Positions 12,770 through 45,045 of a stretch of DNA of 64,000 nucleotides are shown here, one piece after another. Position 1 is the stretch's first letter. Every line of letters begins with the position of its first letter. Both the position numbers and the translations under genes were made by a program. The notes under the pieces were generated by a model. It saw only the letters and a program-made list of their open reading frames with translations. It was not told where the DNA came from and ran no database searches. Source of the stretch: Gymnodinialimonas sp. 202GB13-11 (lineage in GTDB: Bacteria > Pseudomonadota > Alphaproteobacteria > Rhodobacterales > Rhodobacteraceae); contig NZ_JBFRBH010000001.1 of assembly GCF_040932485.1 (NCBI RefSeq), forward strand, positions 1,984,001-2,048,000, in the 5' to 3' direction.

Positions 12770-12772
12770 GGC

Positions 12773-26035: not shown

Positions 26036-27016
26036 TTACCAGCCGCGCACTTCCAAACGGGTGGAGCAGGTGCTGGGATAGTACCCACCGATCCAGATAT
26101 CGACACGACCGTTGAGGTCCGCCGTATCCGTCAGACGCAAGCGCGACCGCGTGTGCGACGGATAGTTGTAGTCGTCGTTGAAGTGGAACGTTCCCGACGC
26201 GTCGCGGATCAACAGCGTCGTGTCACAGCTTGTGGCTTCCACGAGGAACTGCACCGTATCGAACTGGGTCATGTCGCTCAGGTACATGGTGAAGGTCGGG
26301 TTTGCGTCAAAGAAACCACGTGCATACGGCATGCCGCCACCACAGGTCCGCAAATCGGTGAATCCGCTATGCGTGATCGTGTGGTCATACGAATTGCCGA
26401 AGTCCGAGCCATCCGACACCAGCGGCGAGCCGTCGTAGAAATTGTTCGGGCACCCCGCCACAGCCGGGCTGGCCGTCGGTGGGAACGGATCGTTATTACC
26501 GCCCGCATTCGGGTCATTCGGGTCGTTGGGATCAGGATCGGGATCCGGGTTTGGATCGGGATCGGGATCAGGATCGGGGTTTGGATCGGGATCAGGGTCC
26601 GGGTCGGGATTGGTGCCACCGCCGGTTGTCCCGCCGCCGGTCGTCCCACCACCGGTCGTGCCACCGCCGGTCGTGCCGCCGCCCGTGGTGCCGCCACCGG
26701 TCGTCCCACCGCCAGTGGTGCCACCACCGGTCGTTCCGCCGCCGGTGCTGCCGCCACCCGTGTTTCCAGTGCCGCACGTATCGGCGCCGTTGCACTGATC
26801 GCCAGCTTCCGTGTCGGGCAGAACGGCCAGGTCCGCATCCCAGGCGGTCTCAAACATGCCACCCTGCATCTCACCGCGGATCACCGCGGAATGCTCTGAC
26901 AAATCTGCATTTGTCGTATCGGCCATCCAAACGCCGACCCCCACAAGTGCGGCCATCACGACGACATAGTCGATCGTGACGACACCTTTGTCTTTTGTCC
27001 AAAACGGGTGGAACAC
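26036..27016 (-). CDS. Flp-pilin-like surface protein with repeat linkers and C-terminal four-Cys domain
   Basis: About 326 residues. The start is a GTG at 27016 because GGAGG lies six bases upstream; the longer ATG frame is unsupported. Near the N-terminus, KG-VVTIDY plus a hydrophobic helix (to about residue 35) matches a Flp prepilin cleavage site, with Asp in place of the usual Glu5 before Tyr6. About ten Gly-Gly-Gly-Thr units follow (26610-26765), then a Asp-Pro/Asn-Pro repeat (26520-26610), then a four-Cys PPC-like domain (26039-26452; CPNNF, DLRTC, SCDTTLLI, TCSTRLEV). It probably is displayed outside the cell. Function unknown; it may be a minor pilin-like adhesin or sensor partner. 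Confidence 0.7.
   Translation of the reverse strand: MFHPFWTKDKGVVTIDYVVVMAALVGVGVWMADTTNADLSEHSAVIRGEMQGGMFETAWDADLAVLPDTEAGDQCNGADTCGTGNTGGGSTGGGTTGGGTTGGGTTGGGTTGGGTTGGGTTGGGTTGGGTTGGGTNPDPDPDPDPNPDPDPDPDPNPDPDPDPNDPNDPNAGGNNDPFPPTASPAVAGCPNNFYDGSPLVSDGSDFGNSYDHTITHSGFTDLRTCGGGMPYARGFFDANPTFTMYLSDMTQFDTVQFLVEATSCDTTLLIRDASGTFHFNDDYNYPSHTRSRLRLTDTADLNGRVDIWIGGYYPSTCSTRLEVRGW
26520..26765. repeat. Tandem repeats encoding Gly-Thr and Asp-Pro linkers
   Basis: About ten imperfect 15-bp units coding TGGG-x repeats lie beside a run of 6-bp-based units coding Asp-Pro/Asn-Pro. Such repeats are prone to length change by slippage. Confidence 0.9.
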
Positions 27017-27341
27017 CTGTGGCCTCCAATCCAATCTACCAAAGCCGCAACACGCGGCCAAAATACGCTCTTCCGCCCGCATGGACGGAATTCTCCGACG
27101 CTTTTGTCTCAAGACATCGTGGTCGAAATGGGGCGAAAGGCGGCAATCATGTAGACAGTTCGTTGCCGGACCGGCATCAATCGCGACGCCAGGTCGAGGG
27201 GTGGACACGGGCCACGCACGCGCCTATACGCGCGCATCGCTTCGTCGTGCATTTTTGAACGGCGTGATCCCTCGTGGCCGGGGGCGAAGCGAAAATCGCC
27301 CGGCCTTTGAAATGCGCCCTGAAAACTGAACTGGAGTTCCC
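27017..27341. promoter_or_regulatory. Divergent region and rpsF leader (325 bp)
   Basis: No gene supported. It holds promoters for the minus-strand Flp-like gene and for rpsF. A stable hairpin (27276-27287 with 27296-27305; GGCCGGGGGCGA paired with TCGCCCGGCC, one bulge) lies 36 bp before rpsF. It could be an S6:S18-type autoregulatory leader or an attenuator. Confidence 0.5.
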
Positions 27342-27695
27342 ATGCCTCTCTACGAGCATGTGATGATTGCGCGTCAGGACCTGTCCAACGCGCAGGCCGA
27401 AGCCCTCAACGAGCATTTCGGCACTGTCCTCAAAGACAATGGCGGCAACGTGGTCGACACCGAATATTGGGGTGTGAAGACCATGGCCTACAAGATCAAC
27501 AAGAACCGCAAGGGTCACTATTCCTACATCCGCACCGACGCACCGTCGGAAGCGGTACAGGAAATGGAACGCCTGATGCGCCTGCATGACGACGTGATGC
27601 GCGTCCTGACCGTCAAGGTCGACGCCCACGAAGAGGGCCCCTCGGTCCAGATGCAGAAACGTGACGAACGCGACGGCCGTCGCGAGCGCCGCTGA
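27342..27695 (+). CDS. rpsF: 30S ribosomal protein S6
   Basis: A 117-residue small-subunit protein pairing with S18 on 16S rRNA. It opens MPLYEHVMIARQDLS and contains YWGVKTMAYKINKNRKGHY, standard for S6. The lysine/arginine-rich tail is alphaproteobacterial. First gene of rpsF-rpsR-rplI, 20 bp before rpsR. Confidence 0.98.
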   Translation: MPLYEHVMIARQDLSNAQAEALNEHFGTVLKDNGGNVVDTEYWGVKTMAYKINKNRKGHYSYIRTDAPSEAVQEMERLMRLHDDVMRVLTVKVDAHEEGPSVQMQKRDERDGRRERR

Positions 27696-27715
27696 TTCTT
27701 TGAAAGGATAAAGAC

Positions 27716-27943
27716 ATGGCCGCAAAACCATTCTTCCGCCGCCGCAAGACCGACCCGTTCGAGGGCGAGAATGCGCCGAAGATCGACTACAAGGACACGC
27801 GCCTGCTTCAGCGTTACATCTCTGAGCGTGGCAAGATCGTCCCTTCCCGTATCACCGCAGTCGGTGCCAAGAACCAGCGCAAGCTCGCCAAGGCGATCAA
27901 GCGTGCCCGGTTCCTCGCCCTCCTGCCCTATGCCGTTAAGTAA
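27716..27943 (+). CDS. rpsR: 30S ribosomal protein S18
   Basis: A 75-residue S18 with the conserved [16 protein letters not shown] and [17 protein letters not shown] core. It binds S6 on the platform of the small subunit. A good ribosome-binding site (GAAAGGA) lies upstream, and rplI follows 12 bp later. Confidence 0.98.
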
Positions 27944-27955
27944 GGAGACGAACTG

Positions 27956-28600
27956 ATGGACGTTATCCTGCTGGAACGTGTGGCCAAGCTGGGTCAGATG
28001 GGCGAAGTGGTCTCCGTCAAGGAAGGCTACGCGCGCAACTACCTCTTGCCGCAGAAAAAGGCGCTCCGCGCCAACGAGGCGAACCTTGCCACGTTCGAAA
28101 ACCAGAAGGCGCAGCTTGAGGCGCGCAACCTGGAAACCAAGAAAGAAGCCGACGCGCTTGGTGAAAAGCTCGATGGACAGCAGTTCATCGTGATCCGCTC
28201 GGCGTCTGACGCCGGCTCGCTCTATGGCTCCGTCACCACCCGTGACGCGGCCGATGCAGCGACCGAGGAAGGCTTCTCCGTTGATCGCAAGCAGGTCGTT
28301 CTGACCGCACCGATCAAGGATCTGGGCCTGCACGACGTCGTCGTTAAGCTGCACCCCGAAGTTGAGGTGACCATCCAACTCAACGTCGCCCGCTCGCCAG
28401 AAGAGGCCGAGCTTCAGGCATCGGGCAAGTCGATCCAGGAACTGGCGGCCGAGGAAGAGGCACAAGCCGAATTCGAGATCGCGGAACTGTTCGACGATAT
28501 CGGCGCGGCACAACTCGACGAGTTGGAAGGTGGCGACGACGCCCCTGCGGCCGAAGAGACCTCCGAAGAGGCACCAGCCGAGGACAGCGAAGAGGACTAA
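27956..28600 (+). CDS. rplI: 50S ribosomal protein L9
   Basis: A 214-residue L9. The N-terminal RNA-binding domain [17 protein letters not shown] and [15 protein letters not shown] are standard. It is longer than the 149-residue E. coli protein because of an acidic Glu/Ala-rich C-terminal tail (about 165-214), common in this order. It ends at a clear terminator. Confidence 0.98.
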
Positions 28601-28623
28601 GCCCCTCTCCCAAAGAATTGATC

Positions 28624-28655
28624 AAGGCCGCTCCACGCCGGGGCGGCCTTTTTCG
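28624..28655 (+). terminator. Terminator of rpsF-rpsR-rplI
   Basis: AAGGCCGC pairs with GCGGCCTT around a 13-base loop, followed by TTTTTC, 23 bp after the rplI stop. Confidence 0.85.
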
Positions 28656-28757
28656 TTGGCGGATTACAGCTGCGAGGACGACCGCAGGTCGGAGGAGGGG
28701 CTGAACCGCCGCGGCACGCGCCTATATCACGAATAGCCCATAACTCAAGAGGCCCCC

Positions 28758-29951
28758 ATGCTCCGCGCCCTGCCCTTTCTTCTGCTCGCCACGCCCCTCG
28801 CCGCCCAGACGCCCGTGGATGACGGCACCCCCAACTTGCCCGACACGGTGCCCGCCTTCCCCGAGCAAACCAATGCGCCCGAAGTCCTGTCGGGTGTCAC
28901 CTTCGCGGAAGAGGTCATCGTCGGCGCACTCGCGCGTCCATGGGCCGTGGCCGTGCTGCCAGAGGGCGCGGGTTACATCGTGACCGAACGCGGCGGCACG
29001 CTGCGCCACATCTCCCGCGACGGGACCATGGGGCCGGAGATCAGCGGGGTTCCGTCTGTCAGAGCGATGCAGCAGGGCGGGTTGCTGGATGTGGCTCTAT
29101 CTCCGAACTTCGCAGAGAACCGTGAACTCTACCTCACCTATTCTGCCCGCGATGGGCTTGCAGGGTCAGCCACCGCCGTGGCGCGCGCCCAGTTTTCAGA
29201 GGACCACACCGAGCTTGAGGACGTCACGGAGCTTTGGCGCCAGACGCCGGCATCCGTGGTCCCTGCCCATTTCGGCAGCCGCGTGATCGTCGCGCCGTTC
29301 GGCTCTCTGTTTGTGACGACCGGGGATCGCTTCACGCCCGAAAATCGGCAGCTTGCACAAGATCCGGTCGATGCGAGCTATGGTGTCACGATCCTCATTG
29401 ATACCGAAGGCGAATCCTCTCCGGTTCCAATCATCGAAGGCGCGCGGCCAGAGATTCTCACCTACGGCCATCGCAACATCCAAGGTGCGGCCGTGCAACC
29501 AGAGACCAATATCATCTGGACCCTGGAACACGGGCCAGCCGGTGGGGATGAGTTGAACATCATCCGGCCCGGCGCAAATTACGGCTGGCCGCAGGTGAGC
29601 TATGGCGTGAATTACAACGGCTCGGATGTGGGCACGGGCGAGCAGACCCATGCGCCCGATTATGAGGAGCCGCGCTACTACTGGGACCCGTCCATCGCGC
29701 CGTCGGACCTGATCTTCTACGAGGGCGAGATGTTCCCTGATTGGCAGGGCGATATTTTGCTGGGTGCCTTGGCAGGTCGTGCGCTGGTGCGGCTGGATAT
29801 GGAGGGTGATACGGTCATCGGCGAGGAGCGTGTCTGGACGGGTGAGCGGGTGCGAGATGTGGCCATAGATGCGGACGGGGCCATCCTGATCGTGATCGAC
29901 GATGATCCGGGCAGCCTGATCCGGCTGACCCCGTCGCAAGACCCGGAATAG
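28758..29951 (+). CDS. PQQ-dependent aldose sugar dehydrogenase family protein
   Basis: A 397-residue periplasmic beta-propeller of the soluble glucose/sorbosone dehydrogenase family. It has a signal peptide (1-16, cut near PLAAQ), then the blade motifs LARPWAVAVLPEGAG, ERGGTLRHI, GGLLDVALSP, YGHRNIQG, EHGPAGGDELN and YGWPQVSYGVNY. The conserved substrate His of soluble glucose dehydrogenase is expected where PAHFGSR occurs here. It oxidises sugars with PQQ and passes electrons to the respiratory chain in known members; the substrate is unknown. It is transcribed alone. Confidence 0.88.
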   Translation: MLRALPFLLLATPLAAQTPVDDGTPNLPDTVPAFPEQTNAPEVLSGVTFAEEVIVGALARPWAVAVLPEGAGYIVTERGGTLRHISRDGTMGPEISGVPSVRAMQQGGLLDVALSPNFAENRELYLTYSARDGLAGSATAVARAQFSEDHTELEDVTELWRQTPASVVPAHFGSRVIVAPFGSLFVTTGDRFTPENRQLAQDPVDASYGVTILIDTEGESSPVPIIEGARPEILTYGHRNIQGAAVQPETNIIWTLEHGPAGGDELNIIRPGANYGWPQVSYGVNYNGSDVGTGEQTHAPDYEEPRYYWDPSIAPSDLIFYEGEMFPDWQGDILLGALAGRALVRLDMEGDTVIGEERVWTGERVRDVAIDADGAILIVIDDDPGSLIRLTPSQDPE

Positions 29952-30046
29952 GGGACGGTTGCACGCGCGCAACCCGTACCTAAAACATTGCTTTGAAAAG
30001 AGTCCTGGGGATTTTTAACCCAATTTTAAGGAATTGAGCGCGCATT

Positions 30047-30679
30047 TCAGCCCGACGCAGACCGCCCCGCCCGCAAGGCGACCAACCCCGCGACGCCGAG
30101 ACATGCCGCGCCGATCCGGTTGATCAGGCGCAGCACAAACGGTCCGCGCAGATACTCCCGCAGGCTGCTGGCCAGCACCAGCCAACCTAACCCGTTGAGC
30201 GCCGCAACCACCGTAAAAGTCGCCGTTAGCACGGCGAATTGCACCAACACATCGCCGCTTGGGTCCACAAATTGCGGCACGAAGGCCATGTAGAAGACCG
30301 GCCCCTTTGGGTTCAGTGCCGAGATCAGCGTCGATTGCCGGAAGAGCGCGCCAAGCGGGCGTTTAGGTGCGTCATCATCGGTGCGGATCGCCTCAACCGG
30401 GGCTGTCCAAAGCCGATACGCGAGCCACAGAAGGTAGAGCGCGCCGACAACCTTCATCGCCGTGAAGAGCCCCACAGAGGCCGCCAGAATGGCCCCTGCC
30501 CCGGCAAGTGACACAGACATCGCCAGAAGTGCACCGAGCGCCTGCCCCGGCACAGTCGCAAGGCCCGAGCGGAGGCCGTCACGAATGCCGTAGGTGACGG
30601 TCAGCACAATATTCGGACCGGGGATGACAACGACGATGGCGCTTGCCACGACGAAGGCCAGCCAGGTTTCTGTGGTCAT
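30047..30679 (-). CDS. LysE/RhtB family exporter
   Basis: A 210-residue inner-membrane protein with about six helices. The N-terminal PGPNIVLTVTYGIRDGLRSG and SALNPKGPVFYMAFVPQFV are LysE/RhtB signatures, indicating amino-acid or related metabolite efflux. The start at 30679 has AGAGGGG upstream. It follows the DUF3817 and HemJ-like genes on the same strand after a 112-bp gap, so co-transcription is uncertain. Confidence 0.88.
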   Translation of the reverse strand: MTTETWLAFVVASAIVVVIPGPNIVLTVTYGIRDGLRSGLATVPGQALGALLAMSVSLAGAGAILAASVGLFTAMKVVGALYLLWLAYRLWTAPVEAIRTDDDAPKRPLGALFRQSTLISALNPKGPVFYMAFVPQFVDPSGDVLVQFAVLTATFTVVAALNGLGWLVLASSLREYLRGPFVLRLINRIGAACLGVAGLVALRAGRSASG

Positions 30680-30791
30680 GGATGTATCCCCTCTTTCGAC
30701 AAAGAGGATCACCAACCATCGAAAAAGGAAAGAGACGAACTGGATAGCTTGCAGTCGCGTCCCCTTAATCCGCGATAAGTCACCGGCCCCG

Positions 30792-31187
30792 CTAGGGTTT
30801 CAGGACCACTAGAAGAATAATGAGGCCCAACAAAACAAAGCCAACGGGCAGGAACACATCGCGGCTCGATGCCCCCTCCTCCCAGCCGTCCCAGATGGTA
30901 CGGCGCAGCTTTCCAACCAAAGCGCCATGCAGGCCGGACAGGGCAAGGACCAACAGTATCTTCAAGCCCAACCAGATCGACGTGAACCAGCCGCCTTGAA
31001 TGCCAAGGAGGATGCCGAAGAGAAGCGCGAGGATCATCGCCGGGGTCGTCACGGCGCGGTCATAGGCCTTAAGCGGTTTCAGGTGCAGCAAAGTCGGATG
31101 GCGAAGTGCGAAGGCGACGGCCACCATGCCGCCGATCCAAACAAACAGCGAAATCAGATGGGCGGCTTTTGTCAGGTCGTAGAGCAT
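30792..31187 (-). CDS. HemJ/CopD-like integral membrane protein
   Basis: A 131-residue protein with four predicted helices. His10 in AAHLISLFVWIGGM and a second His in GLHGALVGKLRR resemble the haem-ligand and conserved Arg/Lys layout of HemJ (protoporphyrinogen oxidase) and CopD relatives. It is slightly short for HemJ, so the exact reaction is open. Its start overlaps the DUF3817 stop by one base, and a TetR regulator is divergent to the pair. Confidence 0.65.
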   Translation of the reverse strand: MLYDLTKAAHLISLFVWIGGMVAVAFALRHPTLLHLKPLKAYDRAVTTPAMILALLFGILLGIQGGWFTSIWLGLKILLVLALSGLHGALVGKLRRTIWDGWEEGASSRDVFLPVGFVLLGLIILLVVLKP

Positions 31188-31471
31188 CAGATCTCTCCCA
31201 TCTGCTGGCGCAACCAGCGCTCATTCACGAAGCCGCCGAAGGGGATGAATGCGCCCACAAGTAGACGCAACGCCCCCAGCCAATTGATCAGTCCCTCGGC
31301 CCATGAGCGGATCACGAACCACAGGAACACCATGAAGGCGAGGCCATGGATCGGCCCCATGACCGAAACGGCCTGTGGAATTTCCGCAGTGTATTTCAAA
31401 GGCATGGCGACGCAAAACAACGCAAGAAGGGTCAATGCCTCGAAGATCGCGGCGCGCATCAGGCCAACCAT
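31187..31471 (-). CDS. DUF3817 small membrane protein
   Basis: A 94-residue three-helix protein with the family-like arrangement ALTLLALFCVAMPLKY and GPIHGLAFMVFLW, and a terminal basic stretch NERWLR. GGAGAG lies before the start. Translationally coupled to the HemJ-like gene. DUF3817 proteins have no established function; a link with haem or membrane biogenesis follows only from the neighbour. Confidence 0.82.
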   Translation of the reverse strand: MVGLMRAAIFEALTLLALFCVAMPLKYTAEIPQAVSVMGPIHGLAFMVFLWFVIRSWAEGLINWLGALRLLVGAFIPFGGFVNERWLRQQMGEI

Positions 31472-31487
31472 TTAATCTCTCCGACAA

Positions 31488-31543
31488 AAGTAAACACTCG
31501 TTTTCTTTACGTCGTACTTTTGGCGGTGTAAACACTTGTCCAC
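31488..31543. promoter_or_regulatory. Paired operator-like repeats between DUF3817 gene and TetR gene
   Basis: Two similar 15-mers, GTAAACACTCGTTTT at 31490-31504 and GTAAACACTTGTCCA at 31528-31542, lie in the 72-bp divergent gap, one partly palindromic with GTAAA...TTTAC ends. These are candidate binding sites for the adjacent TetR regulator. Confidence 0.5.
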
Positions 31544-32161
31544 ATGACAGTCGCAGAAAAACCCAGACGCAATGTGAAAGACCGCGCCGCGACCGAGGCG
31601 CGCATTCTTTCAGCTGCGCGCGCAGTCTTTTCAGAACGCGGCTATGACGCTGCGGGTCTGCGAGAAATTGCGGAAGTGGCGGAGGCCAATTTGTCGCTGA
31701 TCAGCCGCTATTTTGGCGGCAAGGAAGGCCTACTGACCGCGCTGACTGATGCGTTCGTGACAGCACGCCGCGAAGGAGATCTTGGCTATCCTCCGCAGGA
31801 CAGCTTGGAAAACGAAATCTATCGCTACTTGCATGCAAAGCTGCAGGACGACCTGAAGGATGAGGACATCATCCGCCTAATCATCAGCCGCGCGGCGATT
31901 GACTCCACTTTTCGAGCGGGCGGCGCGGTGCACATGGATGGCAAGGCCGACCAGAATTTCAGGGATCGGGTGCGGCACCTTCAGGACAGTGGCCACGTAT
32001 CAAGTGGTGTGGACATAGACCTGCTTTTCGCCGCCGTGATGAACATGTCATTCTCGGTGAACTTCTTTGGAACGATGATCGCAAACCGGCCGCCGGACGA
32101 GACGGACCGACTGTTCAAAAGTGTAGCGCGGGCCCTGTCACAGGGTCCGTCCTTCGAGTAA
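31544..32161 (+). CDS. TetR/AcrR family regulator
   Basis: A 205-residue one-domain repressor. The N-terminal helix-turn-helix is clear (ARAVFSERGYDAAGLREIAE, then ANLSLISRYFGGKEGL). The C-terminal ligand domain is all-helical without a family signature that names a ligand. It is divergent from the DUF3817/HemJ-like genes with repeats in the shared gap, which suggests it controls itself and them. Confidence 0.9.
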   Translation: MTVAEKPRRNVKDRAATEARILSAARAVFSERGYDAAGLREIAEVAEANLSLISRYFGGKEGLLTALTDAFVTARREGDLGYPPQDSLENEIYRYLHAKLQDDLKDEDIIRLIISRAAIDSTFRAGGAVHMDGKADQNFRDRVRHLQDSGHVSSGVDIDLLFAAVMNMSFSVNFFGTMIANRPPDETDRLFKSVARALSQGPSFE

Positions 32162-32163
32162 CC

Positions 32164-32203
32164 GCAAACGCAAAACGGCCCACCAATTGGCGGGCCGTTG
32201 CGT
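32164..32203. terminator. Terminator between tetR and the single-domain secreted protein
   Basis: AACGGCCC pairs with GGGCCGTT around a 10-base loop. On the minus strand TTTTG follows, so it suits the minus-strand gene best, but it lies between two converging genes. Confidence 0.75.
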
Positions 32204-32226: not shown

Positions 32227-32682
32227 TTACCAGGTTTCCATCTGCAGCGTCGCGCCGCAGGTGCTGGTGCCGTAGGTGCCGACCCAGATGTCATAGACGC
32301 CGGACTGCGGGCTGTAGAGGTTGATGGCAGGGTTCAGGTTGCCGTAGCTGTCATCGTCGAAGTACCAGTTGCCGGTTGCGTCGTTGACCAGCAGAACCGT
32401 GTCGCACGAGCCGATGGCGCGGATCTCAAGACGGTTATAGGCGTGCAGGCCGTCGATCTGGAATTCGAAGTCCGGGCGCGAAATGACGTAGCCCGAGTGG
32501 TTCCAGCCACAGTTGCGCAGAGACTGCGAACCGCCAGCAACAACCGAATAGCTGTTCGGGGTCCAGAGGTCCTGGCCGGTGGTGTAGCCGGTCTGGACGC
32601 CCTGGTTCTGCCATGCGGGGCAGGCTGCGGCGATACCAGCGGTGGCGAGAAGGACTGCAGTGGCGGCAAGAAGCTTTTTCAT
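32227..32682 (-). CDS. Secreted single four-Cys PPC-like domain protein
   Basis: A 151-residue exported protein: signal peptide MKKLLAATAVLLATAGIAAA, then one complete four-Cys domain. Conserved features are CPAW at the start, SLRNC, SCDTVLLVND with the acidic GNWYFDDDSYGNL strand, GVYDIWVGTY and a closing ATLQMETW. The alternating strands and the acidic Asp-rich loop recall PPC (pre-peptidase C-terminal) beta-sandwiches. No enzyme motif is seen. The same domain occurs in the kinases and the Flp-like protein of this window. Its abundance and partner are unknown. Confidence 0.75.
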   Translation of the reverse strand: MKKLLAATAVLLATAGIAAACPAWQNQGVQTGYTTGQDLWTPNSYSVVAGGSQSLRNCGWNHSGYVISRPDFEFQIDGLHAYNRLEIRAIGSCDTVLLVNDATGNWYFDDDSYGNLNPAINLYSPQSGVYDIWVGTYGTSTCGATLQMETW

Positions 32683-32847: not shown

Positions 32848-34350
32848 TCAGAAGTTCCAGGTCTCCATCTCGATCTCGGCTTCGCAGGCGATTTCCGCGC
32901 CAAATGTGCCGACCCAGACATCCACGCGACCGTTGAGGGCGGCGGTGTCGGTGAGGTTCAGTTCCGGCTGCAGGTTGCCACCGGAATCGTCGTCGAAGTG
33001 CCAGTTGCCCTGGGCGTCGTTGACGAGAAGCGTGGTGTCGCAATCGCTGCTGACTTCGATCTCAAGACGGCCATAGGTCTCCATTCCCGCCAGCTGGAAG
33101 CTGTAATGGGGCTGCGCGTTGATCACGCCGGCACCGGGCAGGCCCGAGCAGGAGGTCAGCGCGGTCACACCACCCGCTTGCACGGTGTAGCGGTCGGGGC
33201 TGTAGAGCTCCTGACCATCAGAGACGACCGGGATGCCTTCCAGCGAAGTCGTCGGGCAACCGCCGGTCTGCGTGGGCGCAGGGGCCGGTGCGGGTGCTGG
33301 AGCGGGCGCCGGGGCCGGAGCCGGTGCTGGAGCAGGTGCTGGCGCAGGGGCCGGAGCAGGCGTCGGCACAGGCGTTGGGGCCGGGGTTGGCACAGGCTGC
33401 GGGACGGGCTGCGGGATCGGCTGCGGCGCAGGTTGCACAACCGGGATCGCCTGAAGTGTGAACGTACCCGGGCAGGACTGGCCGCTGAAGGTGCCGACCC
33501 AGACGTCGATACGACCGTTAAGCGCCGATTGCTCGGTGATCGTCAGTTCCGGCTGCAGGTTCCCCTGCCCGTCATCGTTGTAATACCATGTGGTGTCCGC
33601 ACCGTTCACCAGCAGCGTGGAATCGCATTCCGCATTGGCGCGAAGGGTCAGGTTGTGGCCCTGCATCTCGGACAATGTGATCGAGAATTGCGGCACCTGG
33701 CTGGCCGTACCGCCGCCATCGACACCGGCGCAGGAGCCGACGCTAACGCCACCAGTGGCCTGTGCGATATAGCTGAGCGGCTGCAACAGCTGGTTAGCGC
33801 TGAATGCCAGCGCGGGGCCAGGAACTTCCCAAGTCGGGCAGGCATTGGCTGGTTGCGGCACGGGCTGAGGCACGGGTTGCGGAGCAACGGTACCACCGGT
33901 GGCTTGAACCGTCAGCGTGGCGGGGCAGCCGCCGCCGGAGAATGTGCCGATCCAGACATCGACCCGGCCATCGGCAGAGGCGGAGGGCAGACGCAGACCG
34001 GGCTGAAGACCATTGCTGTCATCGTTGAAGAACCACTGACCCGATGCATCATTCACGAGCATCGCGGGGTCACAGCTGGAGTTCACGAAAAGATCGAGCT
34101 CACGTCCGGCCATATTGGTCAATTGCAGCGTGATGTCCGGGGCAGACCGGAACTGGCCATAGCCAAGGTTGCTCAACCCACACTGCGCAAGCGTAAATTC
34201 ACCGCCCGCGTTGACGTTGAAATTCAAACCATTCGCGATCTGCGAGCTATCGTAATTATAGCTGCTCGTGGCCAATTGGTAGTTTGGGCAGGCCATAGCG
34301 GCACCCCCCATGGCAATCATAGCAATCGCGCTTGCTGTCATAAGACGCAT
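32848..34350 (-). CDS. Secreted protein with three four-Cys PPC-like domains
   Basis: A 500-residue exported protein: signal peptide (1-20), domain 1 about 21-152, a Pro-Gln linker, domain 2 about 171-303, a long Pro-Ala linker (about 305-360), domain 3 about 363-500. Each copy has four Cys at matching places and the CD-x-x-LLVN, FxDD/DDD and DVWVGTF motifs; copy 1 has PAMLVN in place of the TLLVN. Domain 3 is most like the domain of the single-domain neighbour and ends METWNF. The elastic linkers suggest a beads-on-string surface or periplasmic protein. Not recognised by name. Confidence 0.75.
   Translation of the reverse strand: MRLMTASAIAMIAMGGAAMACPNYQLATSSYNYDSSQIANGLNFNVNAGGEFTLAQCGLSNLGYGQFRSAPDITLQLTNMAGRELDLFVNSSCDPAMLVNDASGQWFFNDDSNGLQPGLRLPSASADGRVDVWIGTFSGGGCPATLTVQATGGTVAPQPVPQPVPQPANACPTWEVPGPALAFSANQLLQPLSYIAQATGGVSVGSCAGVDGGGTASQVPQFSITLSEMQGHNLTLRANAECDSTLLVNGADTTWYYNDDGQGNLQPELTITEQSALNGRIDVWVGTFSGQSCPGTFTLQAIPVVQPAPQPIPQPVPQPVPTPAPTPVPTPAPAPAPAPAPAPAPAPAPAPAPAPAPAPTQTGGCPTTSLEGIPVVSDGQELYSPDRYTVQAGGVTALTSCSGLPGAGVINAQPHYSFQLAGMETYGRLEIEVSSDCDTTLLVNDAQGNWHFDDDSGGNLQPELNLTDTAALNGRVDVWVGTFGAEIACEAEIEMETWNF
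33255..33440. repeat. Pro-Ala coding repeat linking domains 2 and 3
   Basis: A run of imperfect 6-bp units (GCCGGT/GCAGGG and similar on the plus strand) codes an Ala-Pro dipeptide repeat preceded by Gln-Pro-rich units. The array is likely to vary in length between strains. Confidence 0.8.
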
Positions 34351-37895: not shown

Positions 37896-38441
37896 GTCTG
37901 TCCTCGTGACGGCTAGGCGGCGGTCAGGCAATACGAGCTTGCCCGCGCCATTCAGGTCGGGTGAAAATTTGCGCCGTTCTATGGGGCTGCGGCCCGGTCC
38001 GCAAGGGGGTCGGAGGCTTGGCAAAGGGCCTTCGGCTTGCTTTGATGCCCGAACCGGGGGAGGAGCGATCAATCCGTGCCGAAAATGACCTGTATCACCA
38101 ACAGACAAAGGGAAGAGGCCGCCCATCGCGGCTTTGCGGTGCTGATCGTCGAATCGCTTCCGCCCAAGCGTCCGGTTGGCGGGTTTCGAGACCAGCGCAG
38201 GCGGGCGAGCCACGATATGCGGTGGGTCGAATTCACGCTGCTCGGGGCCATTGCATTGCCTGCCCTTCTTGGCCTGGCCTTGTAACGGTGGATTTACCGC
38301 CTTGCGCCGCGCGCGTAAGGGAATCCCGACATTTACTTTCCCCCCTCTCCTTTACCATATTTAAAGGAACCACGACCTGAGCCCCTTCGCGTCAGCTGCC
38401 CTTCAAAAATGGCGCCCCTTCAAAGGCCGGACCCGGACAAG
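37896..38441. promoter_or_regulatory. Divergent region between tig and the first Ser/Thr kinase (546 bp)
   Basis: I see no firm gene. A plus-strand frame at 38076-38285 (69 codons, ending in a hydrophobic stretch [19 protein letters not shown]) could be a tiny membrane protein but lacks a clear ribosome-binding site or homology I know. AT-rich sequence near 38335-38370 is a plausible kinase promoter. Confidence 0.4.
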
Positions 38442-40739
38442 ATGAGCGACGATCCCAGCAAAACACGCGTGCTGCCGGATGGCCCGGCCGGGGAATTGCC
38501 CGTGGGCGCGGAGCTTTCATCGGGAATGTATCGGGTGACAGGCCGGATCGCGGCGGGCGGCTTTGGCATCACGTACGAGGCGCGCGACAACCTCGACCGC
38601 AAAGTTGCAATCAAGGAATGCTTTCCGGCAGGCCTCGCCCTGAGGGCGGGCGATTTCACAGTTTCCGCCGCCAGTGCGTCGACAGCCGAACCATTCGAGA
38701 CGGCACGCAATCTGTTCCTGCGCGAAGCGCGCACATTGGCCGCCCTGCGCCATCCCAATATCGTGCACGTCCAGACTCTCTTTGAAGAGAACGGCACCGC
38801 CTATATGGCGATGGACTTTGTCGATGGGCGCGATCTGCAGCACATCATCGACAATGAGCGTGAAAAGCTGACTCCGGCTTATGTGATGGAGCTGACGCGC
38901 ACGCTTCTGAATGCGCTTGATTACCTGCACCGCGATGCACCTGAGCGCGGCAAGGAACGCCTGCTGCACCGCGACATCAAGCCGGCCAATATTCGCATCG
39001 ACACGCTGGATACACCCGTCATCATTGATTTCGGCGCGGCGCGGCAGGAAACCAAGAACCGCTCCCGCGCGGCGGGCACGTTTCGCGTGGTCTCGGACGG
39101 CTACTCCCCAAACGAGTTCTATGTCGCAGGCACGGAGCAAGGCCCGGCCTCCGACCTTTATTCGCTGGCGGCCACGCTACACCATTGCATCACGGGCAGC
39201 GCCCCTGCCCCAGCCGATGAACGCGCGCAGAAGGTCTCCAACGGCGAAGAGGACCCGTATGAGCCCATTGCAGGCCGCTTTCCCGACCATGACCCGCGCC
39301 TTCTGGCGCTGATCGACCGCGCCCTGTCGCGGCCCCTTAAGGACCGCCCTGCCGATGCGGCCGCGTGGTTTTCCGCCATTCCCGATGCCACCACACGCAT
39401 TGTCGCCGCAGCCCCATCCGCGGTCGCAGTCGCGGCACCCGTAGCGGACACGCCCACCCCACCCCCGGGCAATGGTGGCTTTTGGAAAGGGGCTGCTGTT
39501 GGCGGCGGTCTTCTCGCGCTTTTGGGCGGTGGTGCCTATTTCGTCTTGCCCGATGGCGGCAGCACCGCAGGCAGCGATGCTGAAATGCAGCGCATGTTGG
39601 ACGAGGCCACCTCGGCTCGTACGGATCTTGAGGCGGAGCTTGAAACCATGGCGACAGAGGCCAGCGCCTTGCAGGCAGAGGTCGCCAATGCAGCGCAAGC
39701 CCGCGAGATTGCCGAGGCCCGCGTGGGCGAACTGGGCGATACAGTTGCAGACTTGCGAGCCCAACTGGCCGCCGCAGAAGACAGCGACGATGGTGCGACC
39801 GTTGAGCTGCGCAATCAATTGAACCAGGCGCTGACCGATCAGGACAGCGCACGCGAGGCGCAATTGGCGCTGGAAGCGGAAATCACGAGCCTGCAAGCGG
39901 CTTTGGAAGCCGCACGGGCCGAGGCCCCTGCCCCGGAAGAAATGGTGCAACTTGAATCTGCACGGGCCGAAGCCGAAGCTGGACAAGCCGCCGCAGAGGC
40001 CCGCGCCGCAGCACTGGCCGCCGAGCTGGCGGCCCTTGAAGCCGCCATTGAGGCGGGTGGTGGTGAGATTGATGCCGACGCCTTGGCCGCACTGGAGGCA
40101 GAGCGTGCCGCGGCCATGCGTGATGTGGAACGCGCGCAGGCCGATTTGCAGCGCATGGCCGAAGACCTGTCGGAGGCTGAGGCTGAGGCCGACCGCCTGA
40201 CGATGGAATTGCGAGAGGCACGTGCCGAGATCGACCTGATGCTGGCCAGCGGCACAACGCCCAATCCCGGCCCCAACACCCCCGGTGGAACCGTGTCGGG
40301 CGGCGGCGGCACGACGGCGAATTGCCCGACCTGGGCCGTTCCGGGCGCAGAATTGCGCTATACCGGTACCGAGATCTACACGCCGCAGACCCAGTTATTG
40401 CGCGCCAGTGGCACAGCTAACCTGGGCGATTGTGCGGATCTGCCCGCCAATGTCGTGGGCTTTGTGGACCAGATCCCTGATTTCACGCTCTACACCTCGG
40501 AGATGGCGCAATTCCGGCGTCTGGAGTTGGAAGTAGAGGCCGGTGAATGCGACACGGTTCTGCTGGTGAACACGCAAGACACGGTTTGGCATTTCGATGA
40601 TAATACCGGCAGCATCACCGCCCCGCTTCTGAACCTGACCGGTCAGACAGCGATTGAAGGACGGATCGACATCTGGGTGGGCACGATCGACGGCGCCGGA
40701 TGTGATGCGACGCTGGAAATCGAGACTTGGCTGAACTGA
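38442..40739 (+). CDS. Transmembrane Ser/Thr kinase with coiled coil and four-Cys sensor domain
   Basis: About 765 residues. The cytoplasmic kinase (about 28-315) has all key residues: AAGGFGITY loop, Lys58 in VAIKE, Glu in LREAR, HRDIKPAN with Asp178, DFG at 196-198, and an activation segment AGTFRVVSDGYSPNEFY. One transmembrane helix (about 347-370) leads to a long Ala/Glu/Arg coiled coil (about 378-605), a Gly/Pro linker, and a C-terminal four-Cys PPC-like domain (628-765, with CDTVLLVN, HFDDN, IDIWVGT, ATLEIETW). This is a receptor-kinase plan with a periplasmic sensor. The Met at 38442 is chosen by alignment to the second kinase; 38409 is possible. Confidence 0.9.
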   Translation: MSDDPSKTRVLPDGPAGELPVGAELSSGMYRVTGRIAAGGFGITYEARDNLDRKVAIKECFPAGLALRAGDFTVSAASASTAEPFETARNLFLREARTLAALRHPNIVHVQTLFEENGTAYMAMDFVDGRDLQHIIDNEREKLTPAYVMELTRTLLNALDYLHRDAPERGKERLLHRDIKPANIRIDTLDTPVIIDFGAARQETKNRSRAAGTFRVVSDGYSPNEFYVAGTEQGPASDLYSLAATLHHCITGSAPAPADERAQKVSNGEEDPYEPIAGRFPDHDPRLLALIDRALSRPLKDRPADAAAWFSAIPDATTRIVAAAPSAVAVAAPVADTPTPPPGNGGFWKGAAVGGGLLALLGGGAYFVLPDGGSTAGSDAEMQRMLDEATSARTDLEAELETMATEASALQAEVANAAQAREIAEARVGELGDTVADLRAQLAAAEDSDDGATVELRNQLNQALTDQDSAREAQLALEAEITSLQAALEAARAEAPAPEEMVQLESARAEAEAGQAAAEARAAALAAELAALEAAIEAGGGEIDADALAALEAERAAAMRDVERAQADLQRMAEDLSEAEAEADRLTMELREARAEIDLMLASGTTPNPGPNTPGGTVSGGGGTTANCPTWAVPGAELRYTGTEIYTPQTQLLRASGTANLGDCADLPANVVGFVDQIPDFTLYTSEMAQFRRLELEVEAGECDTVLLVNTQDTVWHFDDNTGSITAPLLNLTGQTAIEGRIDIWVGTIDGAGCDATLEIETWLN

Positions 40740-40746
40740 TCACGCG

Positions 40747-41397
40747 TCAGAGCGTGGACGGATCATATTCCGTTTCGATCCAGAGCCTTATGGGTATGTC
40801 ACCGTGCTTTAGGCGGTCTTGGTAGGCATCGAGAAAGCGGTCCAGAACGCCTGTCTTGGACCAGCTCAGATGCAGATGGCGCAGTCCAAGCGCGCGTTTT
40901 GCCTCAGCCACCGGATGACCTTCGATATGGATCCCCCATAGCGCGGCCGCCAACCCAGTGCGATCAGCGCCGGATTTGCAGTGGATCAGGGCGGGTCGTT
41001 CTAGCGTGTCGAATATATCGAGCAATGAAAGCAGGCGCTCAGGACGTGGGGCCGATCGCGCCTCTAGCGGGACATTGCGCAGCCGAAGCCCAAGGGCCTC
41101 GCAGGTTCGCGCCTCAAATTCGTGTACGGCGAATTGGGCGGGGCGCAGGCTGATAACCTCAACAATTCCACGCGCTTTCCACTGCCTTAGGGCGTTTTCA
41201 TCGGGATGGTTTGCCCTGAACAGGCCGGGTGCGACCTCTCCCTCATTGCGCCAATGGCGCCGCAGGAGGCCGTGATCGTTCACAGCCGCAAAGTACCGCC
41301 CCTGCCACAGGCCAAGGTCGCTATCGATCCTTTGATCGTAGCGCCCCCGGGCCACGTCCAAGGCCCCGTGCAACTTCTGCATAAACGTCAATGCCAT
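40747..41397 (-). CDS. Cys-dependent (tyrosine/dual-specificity) protein phosphatase
   Basis: About 216 residues with the active-site P-loop HCKSGADRTG (Cys-x5-Arg). Upstream, RANHPDENALRQWKARGI and VISLR fit the dual-specificity-like fold used by bacterial PTP-type phosphatases. The start at 41397 is the first Met giving a normal family length; an earlier Met at 41460 is possible. It lies between the two kinases, convergent with the first (7 bp after its stop) and divergent from the second, a suggestive place for a phosphatase acting on the same pathway. Confidence 0.82.
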   Translation of the reverse strand: MALTFMQKLHGALDVARGRYDQRIDSDLGLWQGRYFAAVNDHGLLRRHWRNEGEVAPGLFRANHPDENALRQWKARGIVEVISLRPAQFAVHEFEARTCEALGLRLRNVPLEARSAPRPERLLSLLDIFDTLERPALIHCKSGADRTGLAAALWGIHIEGHPVAEAKRALGLRHLHLSWSKTGVLDRFLDAYQDRLKHGDIPIRLWIETEYDPSTL

Positions 41398-41502
41398 CCC
41401 GTTTGACGTGTCGCAGCACGGACCAGATTGCAAGCCCTGCCCGTACGATAGGGAAAACATGCGTTTACAGGCGGATGCGCGCGCGCAATTGTGCCTGCAG
41501 CC

Positions 41503-44500
41503 ATGGCTGATGAAACACCAACCCCGCGCGGCCCGGATGCCGTCACTCACCAACTGCCCGCCGGAGAGCTTCCGCCGGGTTGGAAACTGTTGGGCGGCCA
41601 ATATGAGATCAAGCGACTGATCGCGTCGGGCGGGTTCGGGATCACCTATCTTGCACAAGATACACTCGAGCGGGATGTCGCGGTGAAAGAGTGCTTTCCG
41701 CTAGGGCTGGCACAGCGGCAGGCGGCGACCCATGCTGTCAGCGCGACGTCGGCCGGCACTTCCGAGCATTTTGAGACCGCGCGTGCACAGTTTTTGCGAG
41801 AGGCCCGGATGCTGGCGCGGTTGCGGCACCCCAATGTCGTACATGTCCAGACCCTGTTTGAGGAAAACGGCACCGCCTATATGGCGATCGATTTCATCCA
41901 TGGCCGCGATTTGCAGGAAGAGATCGTGGGGGCCGATGGCGCTTTCTCACCGCACCGCGTGCTGGAACTGGCGCGCGATCTGCTAGGCGCTTTGAAATAT
42001 ATCCACGACCAATCGGTCCTGCATCGCGATATCAAGCCACAGAACATTCGGATCGACCGGTTCGGAATGCCAATGCTGATCGATTTCGGCGCGGCACGGG
42101 CGGAAACTCAGGCGCGTTCACGCATGGCGGGAACCTTTCGCGTGGTGACAGACGGCTACAGCCCGCATGAATTCTACGTCTCAGGCGCGCAACAGGGGCC
42201 GTATTCGGACCTGTATGCACTAGCGGCGACACTGCACCACGTCATCACCGGCGCGGCGCCCATCGCCGCCGATGAACGTGCCAGTGCCATAGCGACTGGC
42301 CAGCCCGACCCGTACCAGCCGATTGCCGACGCGCACCCAGACCATGATGGCCGCCTTCTGCACCTGATCGACCGTGCCTTGCGCATGACTCCCGGAGACC
42401 GACCCAAGGACGCGGGCGCGTGGCTGGCAGCGCTGGCCGATGCGCCCACCACGATGGTCACACCAATGGCTGCCCCCGTGGCCGAAGCCCCTGCCCCTGC
42501 GCCCAGATCGGGCCGCCGGTTTCTGGGTGGAGCTCTGCTGGGTGGCGTCTTTGCAGCTTTAGTTGGGGCCGGCATCTGGTCGACCCAACCCGCCTGGCTC
42601 TCGCCCGGTATGGACGAGATGATGGCCGAGATGGGCCGACTGGAAGCCGCGCTGGCGGAGGCCGAGGCCGCACGTGGCGCGGCAGAGGCGGAGCTGTCTG
42701 AGATGCAGGCCGCCCTGAACGCGGCAGAGGAAAACCTCGCCCGACTGGAGACTGCGGACGGGGATATGGCCGCAACAATGGCCGAGCTGGAGGCAGCGCG
42801 CGCCGCCCGGGATGCCGCCGCCGGGCAAGTGGCCGAGTTGGAACGCTCGTTAGAGACGCTGGCCGTCACGCAAGCCGCCCTCGAAGATGCGCGGGCCGCG
42901 CGGGATGCCGCAACCCAGCGCGCAACTGATCTGGCCGCAGACAATGCAACGGCCACCAATCGGATCACAGAACTTGAAGCGCTGTTGGCAGCTGCACAAG
43001 CCGCCTCCAATGGATTGACGCAGGACGCGGAAGCAACCGCCGCCGAGATCGCACGGCTGGAGCGGGAACTAGCGTCAGAGCGGACCCGCGCAGCAGCTTT
43101 GGCCAATGTCGACAACGACCTGACCGCAGCGGAGGCCGCCTTGGCCGAAGCCGCCGAGGATATTGCCGATCTGGAAACGCGCCTTGCCGCCGCCCTTGAG
43201 GCCGGCGAAGGCTCTGCCTCGATGCGCGAAGAAATGGACCGGCTGGAGGGCGCGCTGGAAGTGTCCGAGGCAGAGCGCGCCCGCTTGTTGGCGGATCTTG
43301 CCGAAGCTGAAGAAGCCATGGGCGCGAGCGATGCCAACGCCTCGGAAATCGAGCGGCTCCGCGGCCGCATTGCTGAGTTGGAGGCCGAGAATGCCAATCT
43401 GGCCGAGGCGCTTGCCCTGACCGAGGCCGCATTGGCGGACGCTTTGGGCGAAGGGCCGATGTATCTGGTGGAGACCGCCACGCTCAGCGCGCCAAATGGC
43501 ACTCTCTCGCTGCTGCCGCGCTTCTCTTGGGACAACGCCACGGTCGGTCTGGTCGACAGCACCGGCGGCATCGCCCTGTTCGATCGCGAAAGCGGCGTCT
43601 ACCAAGCCCATCTGGCGCGCGGCATTCCGGACGAGATCACACGCTTGGGCTTTTCGATGGAAGGCGGCTACGCCATTGCCACAACTGGCCCCGGCACCCC
43701 CAACCGGCTCTACGACATCGCCAATCGCCGCGAAATCCTGCGGTTTGAGCCGACAACGGTGACAACCGCGAACCGTGCCATTTCCCGCAGCGAAACGCAT
43801 TTCGTCTATACCCGCGCCAGTGTCGGTGGACAGACCGACATCGTGCTGGTTGATCTGGCCAACACGACCCTCGGCGCGCCGTCCGAACAGATCCTGACCT
43901 CGGTGCCTGATGGAACGTCCGTGCGTGTCACTTTCGCTGAGAATGCAGATCAGATCACGGTCATCACGCCAAGCCTTGTGCGGGTGTTTGAGACCGATGG
44001 GCGTCTGAGCCGCACCGCGGGCAACCGTATCGGCCCATTCGTGGCCATGTCGCCCATGGGCGGCGATCAGGGGCTGTTGATCCTGCGCAATGACGGGGGT
44101 GTCACGCTCTACGACAATGCCCTCGACCAACGCGAATTGGCGGACTTCCCTCCGTCTTCACCTTACACTCGCTATCGCCTGTCCGGCGACCGGCTGAGCT
44201 TCATGCGCGCCAGCGGCACCGCTTGGGAAATCATTGATCTGGTCGGGCGTAACATCCGGGGCAGCGGATCATTGCCCGAAGGCACGGCAGACGCCTTTAT
44301 CTCGGTCTCCTCGGACGGGCAGATGCTGTTTGTGGGCGCAGCGGGTGGCAACACGGCGCAGTTGATCGATGTCGCCACCGGCGGCGCACTGCACGATTTC
44401 GGAGAGGCGGCACAAGGCTATTTCAGCTTTGACAACAGTCATATCGCCGTGGGCATCCCGGATCAGCCACAAGCCACGATCTTCCGGCGAGAAGGCAGCC

Positions 44501-45045
44501 CGCCCGAGCCGCTGTTTGACGAACCCGCGATTGTGACCATCGCACCGCAAGCCCCGCCGCCGGTTGTGCGGATCGACACCGGCAATTGCGCGCCTCTTGG
44601 CCCGGCAGAGGATGGCAGAGGGATCACGCCTGATCTGGAAGGCCGATCGCTTCTGTTCCCGGTTGAGGCCGGGGGCGAGATGAACCTGTCTGAATGCTGG
44701 TCCCATCTGCCGCAGGAATTGACCAATCTGGTCGAGGCTGTAGACCGCCCCCTTTTCGTCACGCCTGCCCCGGCCTATTCGACCACCATCCTCAGCACGT
44801 CACGGGCCCTGTCGCTGGACGTGTCGGCCCGTTCGGGCTGTGACGGCCAGTTGGTGGCCCAATTCGGCCAGACTTGGCGCGTGGCAGATCCGTTATCGGT
44901 TGATGGTGCATTGCGGTTTGGCGATGCGGGTGAGATCGATCAACCGTTGCGCGTGTGGCTGGCCACGGCAGATGCCAATACGACCTGCGACGCGCTCATC
45001 GAATTGCGCACAAGCGCGCCCAGTGGCGAAGGGATTGGAGAATAG
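41503..45045 (+). CDS. Transmembrane Ser/Thr kinase with coiled coil, beta-propeller and divergent four-Cys domain
   Basis: About 1180 residues. The kinase (about 30-315) has ASGGFGITY, Lys62, HRDIKPQN with Asp176, DFG from 194, and AGTFRVVTDGYSPHEFY; it is clearly a paralogue of the other kinase. One transmembrane helix (about 339-360), a very long Ala/Glu coiled coil (about 370-645), then WD40/PQQ-like beta-propeller blades (about 650-1010; VGLVDSTGGIALFD, RVFETDGRL, GVTLYD) and a degenerate four-Cys domain (1029-1180). ATG at 41503 or GTG at 41491. The propeller is absent from the first kinase, so the two may sense different things. Confidence 0.88.
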   Translation: MADETPTPRGPDAVTHQLPAGELPPGWKLLGGQYEIKRLIASGGFGITYLAQDTLERDVAVKECFPLGLAQRQAATHAVSATSAGTSEHFETARAQFLREARMLARLRHPNVVHVQTLFEENGTAYMAIDFIHGRDLQEEIVGADGAFSPHRVLELARDLLGALKYIHDQSVLHRDIKPQNIRIDRFGMPMLIDFGAARAETQARSRMAGTFRVVTDGYSPHEFYVSGAQQGPYSDLYALAATLHHVITGAAPIAADERASAIATGQPDPYQPIADAHPDHDGRLLHLIDRALRMTPGDRPKDAGAWLAALADAPTTMVTPMAAPVAEAPAPAPRSGRRFLGGALLGGVFAALVGAGIWSTQPAWLSPGMDEMMAEMGRLEAALAEAEAARGAAEAELSEMQAALNAAEENLARLETADGDMAATMAELEAARAARDAAAGQVAELERSLETLAVTQAALEDARAARDAATQRATDLAADNATATNRITELEALLAAAQAASNGLTQDAEATAAEIARLERELASERTRAAALANVDNDLTAAEAALAEAAEDIADLETRLAAALEAGEGSASMREEMDRLEGALEVSEAERARLLADLAEAEEAMGASDANASEIERLRGRIAELEAENANLAEALALTEAALADALGEGPMYLVETATLSAPNGTLSLLPRFSWDNATVGLVDSTGGIALFDRESGVYQAHLARGIPDEITRLGFSMEGGYAIATTGPGTPNRLYDIANRREILRFEPTTVTTANRAISRSETHFVYTRASVGGQTDIVLVDLANTTLGAPSEQILTSVPDGTSVRVTFAENADQITVITPSLVRVFETDGRLSRTAGNRIGPFVAMSPMGGDQGLLILRNDGGVTLYDNALDQRELADFPPSSPYTRYRLSGDRLSFMRASGTAWEIIDLVGRNIRGSGSLPEGTADAFISVSSDGQMLFVGAAGGNTAQLIDVATGGALHDFGEAAQGYFSFDNSHIAVGIPDQPQATIFRREGSPPEPLFDEPAIVTIAPQAPPPVVRIDTGNCAPLGPAEDGRGITPDLEGRSLLFPVEAGGEMNLSECWSHLPQELTNLVEAVDRPLFVTPAPAYSTTILSTSRALSLDVSARSGCDGQLVAQFGQTWRVADPLSVDGALRFGDAGEIDQPLRVWLATADANTTCDALIELRTSAPSGEGIGE

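Follow-up and report, generated by a model that had tools for sequence, protein, structure and literature searches.

A four-cysteine PPC-like domain of exported proteins that also caps two transmembrane kinases in Gymnodinialimonas

A 64,000-nucleotide stretch of the Rhodobacteraceae bacterium Gymnodinialimonas sp. 202GB13-11 (contig NZ_JBFRBH010000001.1, positions 1,984,001 to 2,048,000, forward strand; hereafter the window) carries seven copies of one domain in five open reading frames (ORFs). An earlier reading of the same DNA, the original prediction, had described one module in seven related copies in five genes, and this was borne out, positions included. We call the unit the four-Cys domain after its four cysteines (Cys1 to Cys4). 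Its carriers are a pilin-like protein, two exported proteins and two transmembrane serine/threonine kinases, named KinA and KinB here. In window coordinates, with residues in amino acids (aa), they are as follows:

26036..27208, minus strand: pilin-like anchored protein; hydrophobic segment aa 74-92, (GGT)n/(DP)n linker, C-terminal four-Cys domain
26039..26458, minus strand: four-Cys domain of the pilin-like protein, aa 251-390 (genome profile search, E 1e-52)
32227..32682, minus strand: single-domain exported protein; signal-peptide-like N terminus, then Cys1
32230..32628, minus strand: four-Cys domain of the single-domain protein, aa 19-151 (E 9e-53)
32848..34350, minus strand: 500-aa exported protein; three four-Cys domains (aa 19-150, 169-301, 364-498), Pro/Ala-rich linkers
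38409..40739, plus strand: KinA; Ser/Thr kinase aa 31-335, transmembrane segment 362-380, coiled-coil-like stalk about 390-615 (by composition), Gly/Pro linker, four-Cys domain
40317..40730, plus strand: four-Cys domain at the KinA C terminus, aa 637-774 (E 4e-56)
41491..45045, plus strand: KinB; Ser/Thr kinase aa 26-330, transmembrane segment 344-362, coiled-coil-like stalk, then a region of about 330 residues with no convincing Pfam match (propeller-like by eye) and a degenerate four-Cys domain
44584..45012, plus strand: degenerate four-Cys domain at the KinB C terminus, aa 1032-1174 (E 2e-35)

Six of the copies are mutually homologous at pairwise blastp E-values of 5e-40 to 2e-14. The KinB copy is more distant: at E<1 it matched four of the other six (6e-7, 7e-5, 0.003 and 0.14) and left two without a match, its best partner being the third copy of the 500-aa protein, with the KinA copy at 7e-5. 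The seven-copy profile that scores it at 2e-35 includes KinB itself, and a 30-row profile built without KinB still scores it at 3e-5. A profile hidden Markov model had been named as the check that might expose the copies as unrelated; when run, it found homologous copies with a shared cysteine pattern. The acidic loop [FY]-[DN]-D-[DN] and the motif D-x-W-[VI]-G, read from the alignment, are common to six copies and lost from KinB, which keeps its four cysteines; the predicted sharing of both motifs thus holds for the six, and KinB is degenerate as foreseen. The count of seven stands for the window and not for the genome (4.0 Mb, 2 contigs), where the seven-copy profile gave ten matches, the other three lying at C1:1807599 (1e-21), C1:1906564 (7e-20) and C1:2486680 (4e-11), the last a two-Cys sister form. 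No credible Pfam or NCBIfam match to the domain was found in the five window proteins at E≤1: matches there fell on the kinase, on coiled-coil and low-complexity stretches and on strays below cut-off, one of which (Phage_TTP_13, 15.1 bits against a cut-off of 25) overlaps the domain of the pilin-like protein. In the 500-aa protein, one PHROG of unknown function matches a stretch that combines Pro/Ala linker with part of the third copy (30.6 bits), and a PHROGs search with the single-domain protein gave no match. Phage and plasmid origins of the domain were considered and rejected, each on one query against one collection: the 500-aa protein had no match in a phage collection and the single domain none in a plasmid collection.

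The four cysteines had been placed at equivalent positions in all copies, and exactly four were indeed found in every window copy. The window and the fetched stretches together gave 147 full-length copies, after exclusion of 22 small, overlapping loci and of 6 hits shorter than 110 residues; in 138 of these copies a Cys stands in each of the four alignment columns and nowhere else. Eight lack the first Cys in the hit as cut: seven are KinB orthologs, in which Cys1 sits upstream of the hit, and one comes from locus L040, with an uncertain ORF start. The remaining copy (L002) has lost Cys3 and Cys4. In a scan of named genomes, which took the best 80 of 273 matches and yielded 70 loci, and from which records very near the window may be absent, 252 of 255 copies hold exactly four Cys (2 short hits of 257 excluded). 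Cys1 and Cys2 are spaced by 36 in 104/138 and in 199/246 four-Cys copies of the two sets, which partly overlap in genomes. Nine of the 12 listed KinB tails contain the domain, all with four Cys; the L081 gene stops short of it, and L134 and L135 are truncated at the edge of the locus.

The gene at C1:1906564 bears on how these cysteines may pair. Cys1 and Cys2 are kept and Cys3 and Cys4 gone in all 11 genus orthologs examined (L002, L202-L211), which makes Cys1-Cys2 and Cys3-Cys4 the simplest reading. This joint loss suggests those two disulfides, and so indirectly supports the two that had been predicted, although it may be one single evolutionary event. The protein concerned (L002:6529-7494; C1:1906555 in the window's own genome) has an N-terminal part of unknown nature before the copy that keeps Cys1 and Cys2 alone. 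Alternatively, the cysteines might let the kinase tip sense the redox state of disulfides in the periplasm: they are the most constant feature of the domain, and KinB retains all four despite losing other motifs. However, they are equally constant in exported copies, one gene tolerates the joint loss of Cys3 and Cys4, and a structural role accounts for both the constancy and the tolerated loss; we regard a redox sensor as very improbable. The possibility that Cys1, directly behind a signal peptide, is a lipoprotein cysteine was rejected, as Cys1 also occurs in interior tandem copies and in the kinases; the three residues preceding it are A-x-A in 57 of 71 ORFs of the signal-peptide type, which likewise counts against it.

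Structure prediction, also proposed as a check, returned a PPC-type beta-sandwich. AlphaFold modelled the mature single-domain protein from 85 sequences with a mean predicted local distance difference test score (pLDDT) of 95.6, a predicted template-modelling score (pTM) of 0.90 and nine strands of at least 3 residues. With this model, Foldseek found 19 PDB hits at E≤0.001, which include subtilase jelly rolls (3afg, 1wmd) and, from a Bacillus collagenase, the PPC domain 5sv5 (E 8e-4, TM-scores 0.56/0.68, the second by target length); the ColG collagen-binding domain 1nqj lies outside that limit (E 1.5e-3, TM-scores 0.52/0.69, root-mean-square deviation 3.2). The 19 also include clostridial receptor-binding jelly rolls, a CUB domain and a GOLD domain, so what the model resembles is a fold class. 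Confidence is lower for the KinB copy (pLDDT 79.3, pTM 0.76), whose model gave no PDB hit at E≤0.001 in Foldseek, with 5sv5 at rank 10. By prediction, the single-domain model thus resembles solved PPC and collagen-binding structures. A sequence search of the PDB gave weak hits, the best (E 0.21) being a ligand-gated channel.

Sequence comparison links the domain to accepted PPC members through related proteins. No match to PF04151 (PPC) was found in the five window proteins at E≤1, and a six-copy four-Cys array in L047 reaches 21.1 bits against the cut-off of 25.9. Of four sister proteins scanned, two pass that cut-off (L111, 39.2; L113, 34.2) and two fail it (L101, narrowly, at 25.4; L003, 15.9). 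In hhalign profile comparisons the four-Cys set matches two-Cys sisters at 99.8% probability and Cys-free PPC domains at 97.1%, and the pattern D-T-x-L-L...DD...Y-x-I-W-V is common to the four-Cys set and PPC. Since the window proteins fall below the PF04151 cut-off, two sisters lie above it and the profiles connect them, we call the domain PPC-like and not PF04151 as curated. On sequence and modelled structure it is a four-Cys branch of the PPC-type beta-sandwich, and the PPC-like fold that had been suspected is supported on both counts.

Several features set this branch apart within its class. It shares the beta-sandwich class with PF04151, clostridial collagen-binding domains included; unlike PF04151, it has an extra N-terminal part with Cys1 and four fixed cysteines, and the window copies sit on exported repeats, pilin-like proteins and kinases, none behind a peptidase (Pfam found no peptidase match in the five window proteins). 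The alphaproteobacterial two-Cys sister family is homologous over about 107 columns; its proteins are mostly exported, judging by their N termini, and often have the domain in tandem. It lacks Cys1, Cys3 and Cys4 and has its second Cys in W-Y-C-x-D-D instead. One sister domain, at L003:6273-7724 (C1:2486644 in the window's own genome), is N-terminal in a trypsin-like protease, and each of the 13 genomes of the genus contains one or two comparable partial matches, in frames some 400-510 aa long (the protease part being known for L003).

Export is the rule among carriers, as the original prediction had supposed. Directly before the first Cys1, a hydrophobic segment was found in 125 of 146 ORFs from the named genomes and the window, compared with 7 of 146 random interior places. 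Of the 21 negatives, 6 are kinases, 11 are pilin-like or anchored in some other way, 3 are ORFs truncated where the locus ends, and 1 is borderline. These counts come from a 12-residue hydropathy test (2 further ORFs, with Cys1 cut or not located, excluded) that was set up after a 19-residue test had failed on evident signal peptides: the earlier test had scored 56 of 148 ORFs, the window's two exported proteins included, as having no N-terminal hydrophobic stretch. Proteins carry from one to six domains. The trigger factor gene tig or rplI is present in 36 of the 70 named loci, and the arrangement tig, exported repeats, rplI, fabD is repeated in other genera, at loci in which no KinA/KinB-like kinase turned up (L034, L035, L039-L041, L043, L137, L140, L146, L161, L168). 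Fusions of the four-Cys domain to other parts were seen with LCCL (L047), with an HpiC1-like domain (L043) and with a TadE-like N terminus (L049, below cut-off). The L047 protein (L047:8751-11912) looks exported and has six four-Cys domains followed by the LCCL domain. Outside the window's genus the domain is mostly on exported proteins, and it is chiefly an exported PPC-like protein family.

A second group of carriers is pilin-like, with a hydrophobic N terminus (e.g. DEEGGATVEYVVVMAVMVGLGV, L136) and a long, often DP-rich linker. Those bearing the domain adjoin fabD in the window's genus and in L040, L137 and L140; at L140:13853-16366, three pilin-like ORFs stand in a row before fabD and the last has a four-Cys domain. 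Prepilin-like cleavage sites have the form G-x4-[DE] at the start of the transmembrane segment, for which the candidate stretches, picked by eye, are G-VVTID-Y in the window protein and G-GATVE-Y in one relative; the genome has one gene of the prepilin-peptidase type (Peptidase_A24). Flp_Fap (PF04964) has no match anywhere in the genome at E≤1, and the best score of Flp pilin models among ten relatives and neighbours scanned was 13.9 bits for Flp1_like, against a cut-off of 33.5. The minor pilins with modular tips of the Tad/Flp-type Kil system likewise join a pilin-like N terminus to an extra C-terminal domain (PMC12075869). Unlike those, the proteins described here come from a genome without a PF04964 match and are encoded beside fabD, and their assembly into pili is putative.

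The distribution of the domain is centred on one family. With one genome per genus, 53 of 295 family genomes match the profile at E≤0.001, some of them in the sister form, and all 13 genomes of the window's genus match, with 8-11 matches each. A sample of the order gave 45 of 148 genomes; all 65 listed rows belong to the same family, so this sample says little on other families. The class sample gave 11 of 240 genomes and the phylum sample 15 of 299, five of the latter from the family. Nearly all matches outside the family in these two samples start at model position 12 or later (two start at 4 and 5), and those read are mostly the two-Cys sister form, with a few Cys-free PPC domains. Most of the 70 named loci (from the best 80 of 273 matches) are Rhodobacterales/Rhodobacteraceae, for example Roseicyclus, Nioella, Pararhodobacter and Roseibacterium; a few are titled otherwise (Maritalea mobilis, Rhizobium albus, and metagenome-assembled genomes named to class or phylum). 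The top match was an uncultured Roseicyclus, at 98% over the third copy.

KinA and KinB are transmembrane kinases, as had been claimed. They score 104.8 and 113.7 bits with Pkinase, have VAIK, HRD and DFG motifs, and combine these with a transmembrane segment (by hydropathy) and an extracytoplasmic part, the make-up of Hanks-type receptor Ser/Thr kinases. KinA carries the domain in all ten genus loci read (the window and L074-L082); KinB was seen in nine of the ten and has the domain in eight of these nine. In the three remaining genus genomes, G304 has a 773-aa frame with the domain, and the fragmented G298 and G299 have shorter frames. Strain HKCCE2091, taken as outside the genus, has the domain on both kinases with FHA homologues adjacent, and exported repeats at the tig site on a contig other than the kinases'. 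The window genes around the kinases are:

40747..41658, minus strand: DSP/PTP-like phosphatase between the two kinases; Y_phosphatase3 24.3 bits (cut-off 22.2), two DSP-PTPase models just under cut-off
46503..48512, minus strand: FHA-domain protein, 669 aa; a homologue lies beside KinA/KinB in HKCCE2091 too
48522..49385, minus strand: FHA-like protein, 20.0 bits against a cut-off of 20.7; homologue beside the kinases in HKCCE2091
49428..51860, minus strand: PP2C-type phosphatase with a long acidic/Pro-rich tail; possibly the counter-enzyme of the kinases
51845..52501, minus strand: FHA-domain protein (Pfam)

The FHA domain of the 669-aa protein is N-terminal, and its large C-terminal part has no Pfam match. 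A third trio of kinase, FHA protein and PP2C, without a four-Cys domain, lies at L063:15203-18000 (C1:2063203 onward in the window's own genome), and trios of similar kind occur in other genera (L067, L068, L072). Farther off, window positions 4567-19367 (minus strand) hold a gene-transfer-agent-like cluster with terminase, portal, capsid and a GTA_TIM/Rcc01698-type tail protein (four proteins scanned).

Phage defence was considered as the business of these kinases, with the exported domains incidental. The best PADLOC hits are to PD-T4-6 (E 7e-46 for KinA, 1e-51 for KinB), and mad6 also matches; yet the best hits cover the kinase domain common to Hanks kinases, which generic kinases would match too, none of five neighbours tested (the three FHA proteins, the PP2C and 53271-55076) matches PADLOC, and NCBIfam MADS6 scores 107 and 118 against a cut-off of 460. 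Defence kinases of the PD-T4-6 or MAD6 type are therefore scarcely credible to us. Pfam found no PASTA repeats in KinA or KinB, and PknB_PASTA_kin reached 118 and 134 bits against a cut-off of 450.

Is the domain linked to kinases in general? The original prediction had suggested a co-occurrence search, which we ran on the 295 genomes with cut-offs of E≤0.001 for the domain and E≤1e-8 for Pkinase; these cut-offs and contig breaks limit the test, and sister-form hits counted as positive. Pkinase was present in 21 of 53 domain-positive and 127 of 242 domain-negative genera (odds ratio 0.59, Fisher p 0.097), the direction being towards fewer kinases with the domain. A KinA-like kinase was found in just 5 of the 70 named loci, with flanks of up to 10 kb, and the general link was not borne out. 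Of 394 family genomes (from 393 genera), 88 have a KinA-like kinase at E≤1e-40; in the listed matches, identities of at least 64% are confined to the genus, the highest elsewhere being 52%. Ten kinase loci of other genera (L214-L223, from 12 delivered) showed no domain at E≤0.01, within flanks of 1.5 kb in which some ORFs are cut and a tip past the edge could escape; these kinases end in other sequences, one with WD-like repeats by eye. The fusions were seen solely in the window's genus and HKCCE2091, and the association with kinases, found in few genomes, seems to have been added locally. The observation is less surprising than first proposed because the module is chiefly an exported PPC-like family and is tied to kinases in so few genomes.

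Phylogeny points to where the kinase copy may have come from. The KinA copies of the genus form one clade (Shimodaira-Hasegawa-like approximate likelihood ratio test 100; 100/100 in a second tree using five copies) and adjoin the third copy of the exported 500-aa protein and the pilin-like copies (support 90/92), which fits capture of the KinA domain from the neighbouring exported gene, as far as a short alignment can tell. The KinA domain of HKCCE2091 fell outside the genus group, joining it in 0% of 200 bootstrap trees; a single clade of all KinA domains was not rejected (approximately unbiased test, p-AU 0.21). The same trees bear on a sceptical explanation, in which a rugged, general-purpose beta-sandwich has been reused in unrelated roles, so that kinase and secreted copies recognise different things and have no functional link. 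The long stem of the KinA clade would agree with this, as would the lack of kinase enrichment among domain-bearing genera and the joining of the four-Cys domain to LCCL, HpiC1-like and TadE-like parts and of its two-Cys sister to a trypsin-like protease. Against it stand the placement of the KinA copies beside the exported and pilin-like ones and the presence of KinA within the same 20-kb block as the secreted copies in all ten genus loci read. We consider unrelated reuse a serious competitor, if a somewhat unlikely one.

The best reading, on which we are evenly divided, is that an exported binding head was appended to receptor kinases as a sensor tip. The repeated unit would be an exported, disulfide-locked PPC-type beta-sandwich serving as a portable extracytoplasmic binding head. 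Most often it comes as a free exported protein bearing one to six heads. Several genera would also have a copy tethered to the inner membrane or a pilus through a pilin-like N terminus and long linker, and in the window's genus and HKCCE2091 a copy also sits on top of the periplasmic stalk in one or two transmembrane Ser/Thr kinases. Free and tethered heads may bind an envelope or extracellular polymer, and the kinase head may sample the same kind of ligand. The coiled-coil stalk could then relay occupancy across the membrane to the kinase; the neighbouring FHA proteins might read the kinase's output, and the PP2C phosphatase might undo it. Of all this, sequence establishes the homology, the cysteine frame, the export-type N termini, the kinase motifs and the conserved gene neighbourhood; fold class and disulfide pairing are predictions, whereas ligand binding, a shared ligand, the direction of signalling and the FHA/PP2C partnership are inferences. 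To our knowledge, the extracytoplasmic ligands of proteobacterial Ser/Thr kinases are poorly known.

Two known systems make such an arrangement plausible by analogy. Collagenase PPC domains bind collagen (PMC6168687), and PASTA kinases read peptidoglycan through a module also found on a penicillin-binding protein (PMC6213207). KinA and KinB would work like the PASTA kinases and PASTA-bearing penicillin-binding proteins, with which they share a transmembrane Hanks kinase and an extracytoplasmic module that recurs on another exported protein (PBP2X in that system; same source). Unlike PASTA kinases, they have no PASTA, a coiled-coil-like stalk and a single unrelated beta-sandwich. By the same analogy we would expect a polymer ligand, read by KinA and KinB. 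No publication describing this domain on a kinase was found among the matches listed (titles and abstract starts), none on Roseicyclus together with a kinase was found, and 'ppc' does not occur in the portion at hand of a survey of Ser/Thr kinase architectures (PMC1262709).

A more direct connection would be homotypic signalling, in which the two secreted proteins, with one domain and with three, bind directly to the four-Cys domain on the kinase as ligand, co-receptor or decoy. The same module lies on both sides, the neighbourhood is conserved in the genus, and tandem copies could cross-link receptors. However, the domain is common in kinase-free genomes, so kinase recognition cannot be its general role, and in HKCCE2091 the kinase and exported loci are on different contigs; we judge this explanation improbable. 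The same doubt attaches to the wider proposal that in the window's genus the secreted and pilin-tethered copies act as ligands, competitors or co-receptors of both kinases, so that duplication of one domain would have produced a circuit for self-recognition or matrix sensing.

For the sensor-tip reading, HKCCE2091 is informative: the FHA homologues stay beside the KinA-KinB pair there, with the secreted cluster on another contig. Several observations weigh against it. The KinB copy has lost the acidic loop, the KinB of G305 has no domain, and G296 shows no KinB in the fetched stretch. As 32 of the 53 domain-bearing genera have no Pkinase, the exported proteins need no kinase; secreted and kinase genes run on opposite strands and therefore do not form one operon; and the fold class spans binders of very different ligands, so the fold names no ligand.

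Because the head occurs both free and on a kinase and is predicted to fold alone, it should be purifiable and usable as bait for its ligand. With the four-Cys or sister form recurring in 53 of the 295 sampled genera of one family, the domain merits a model of its own.

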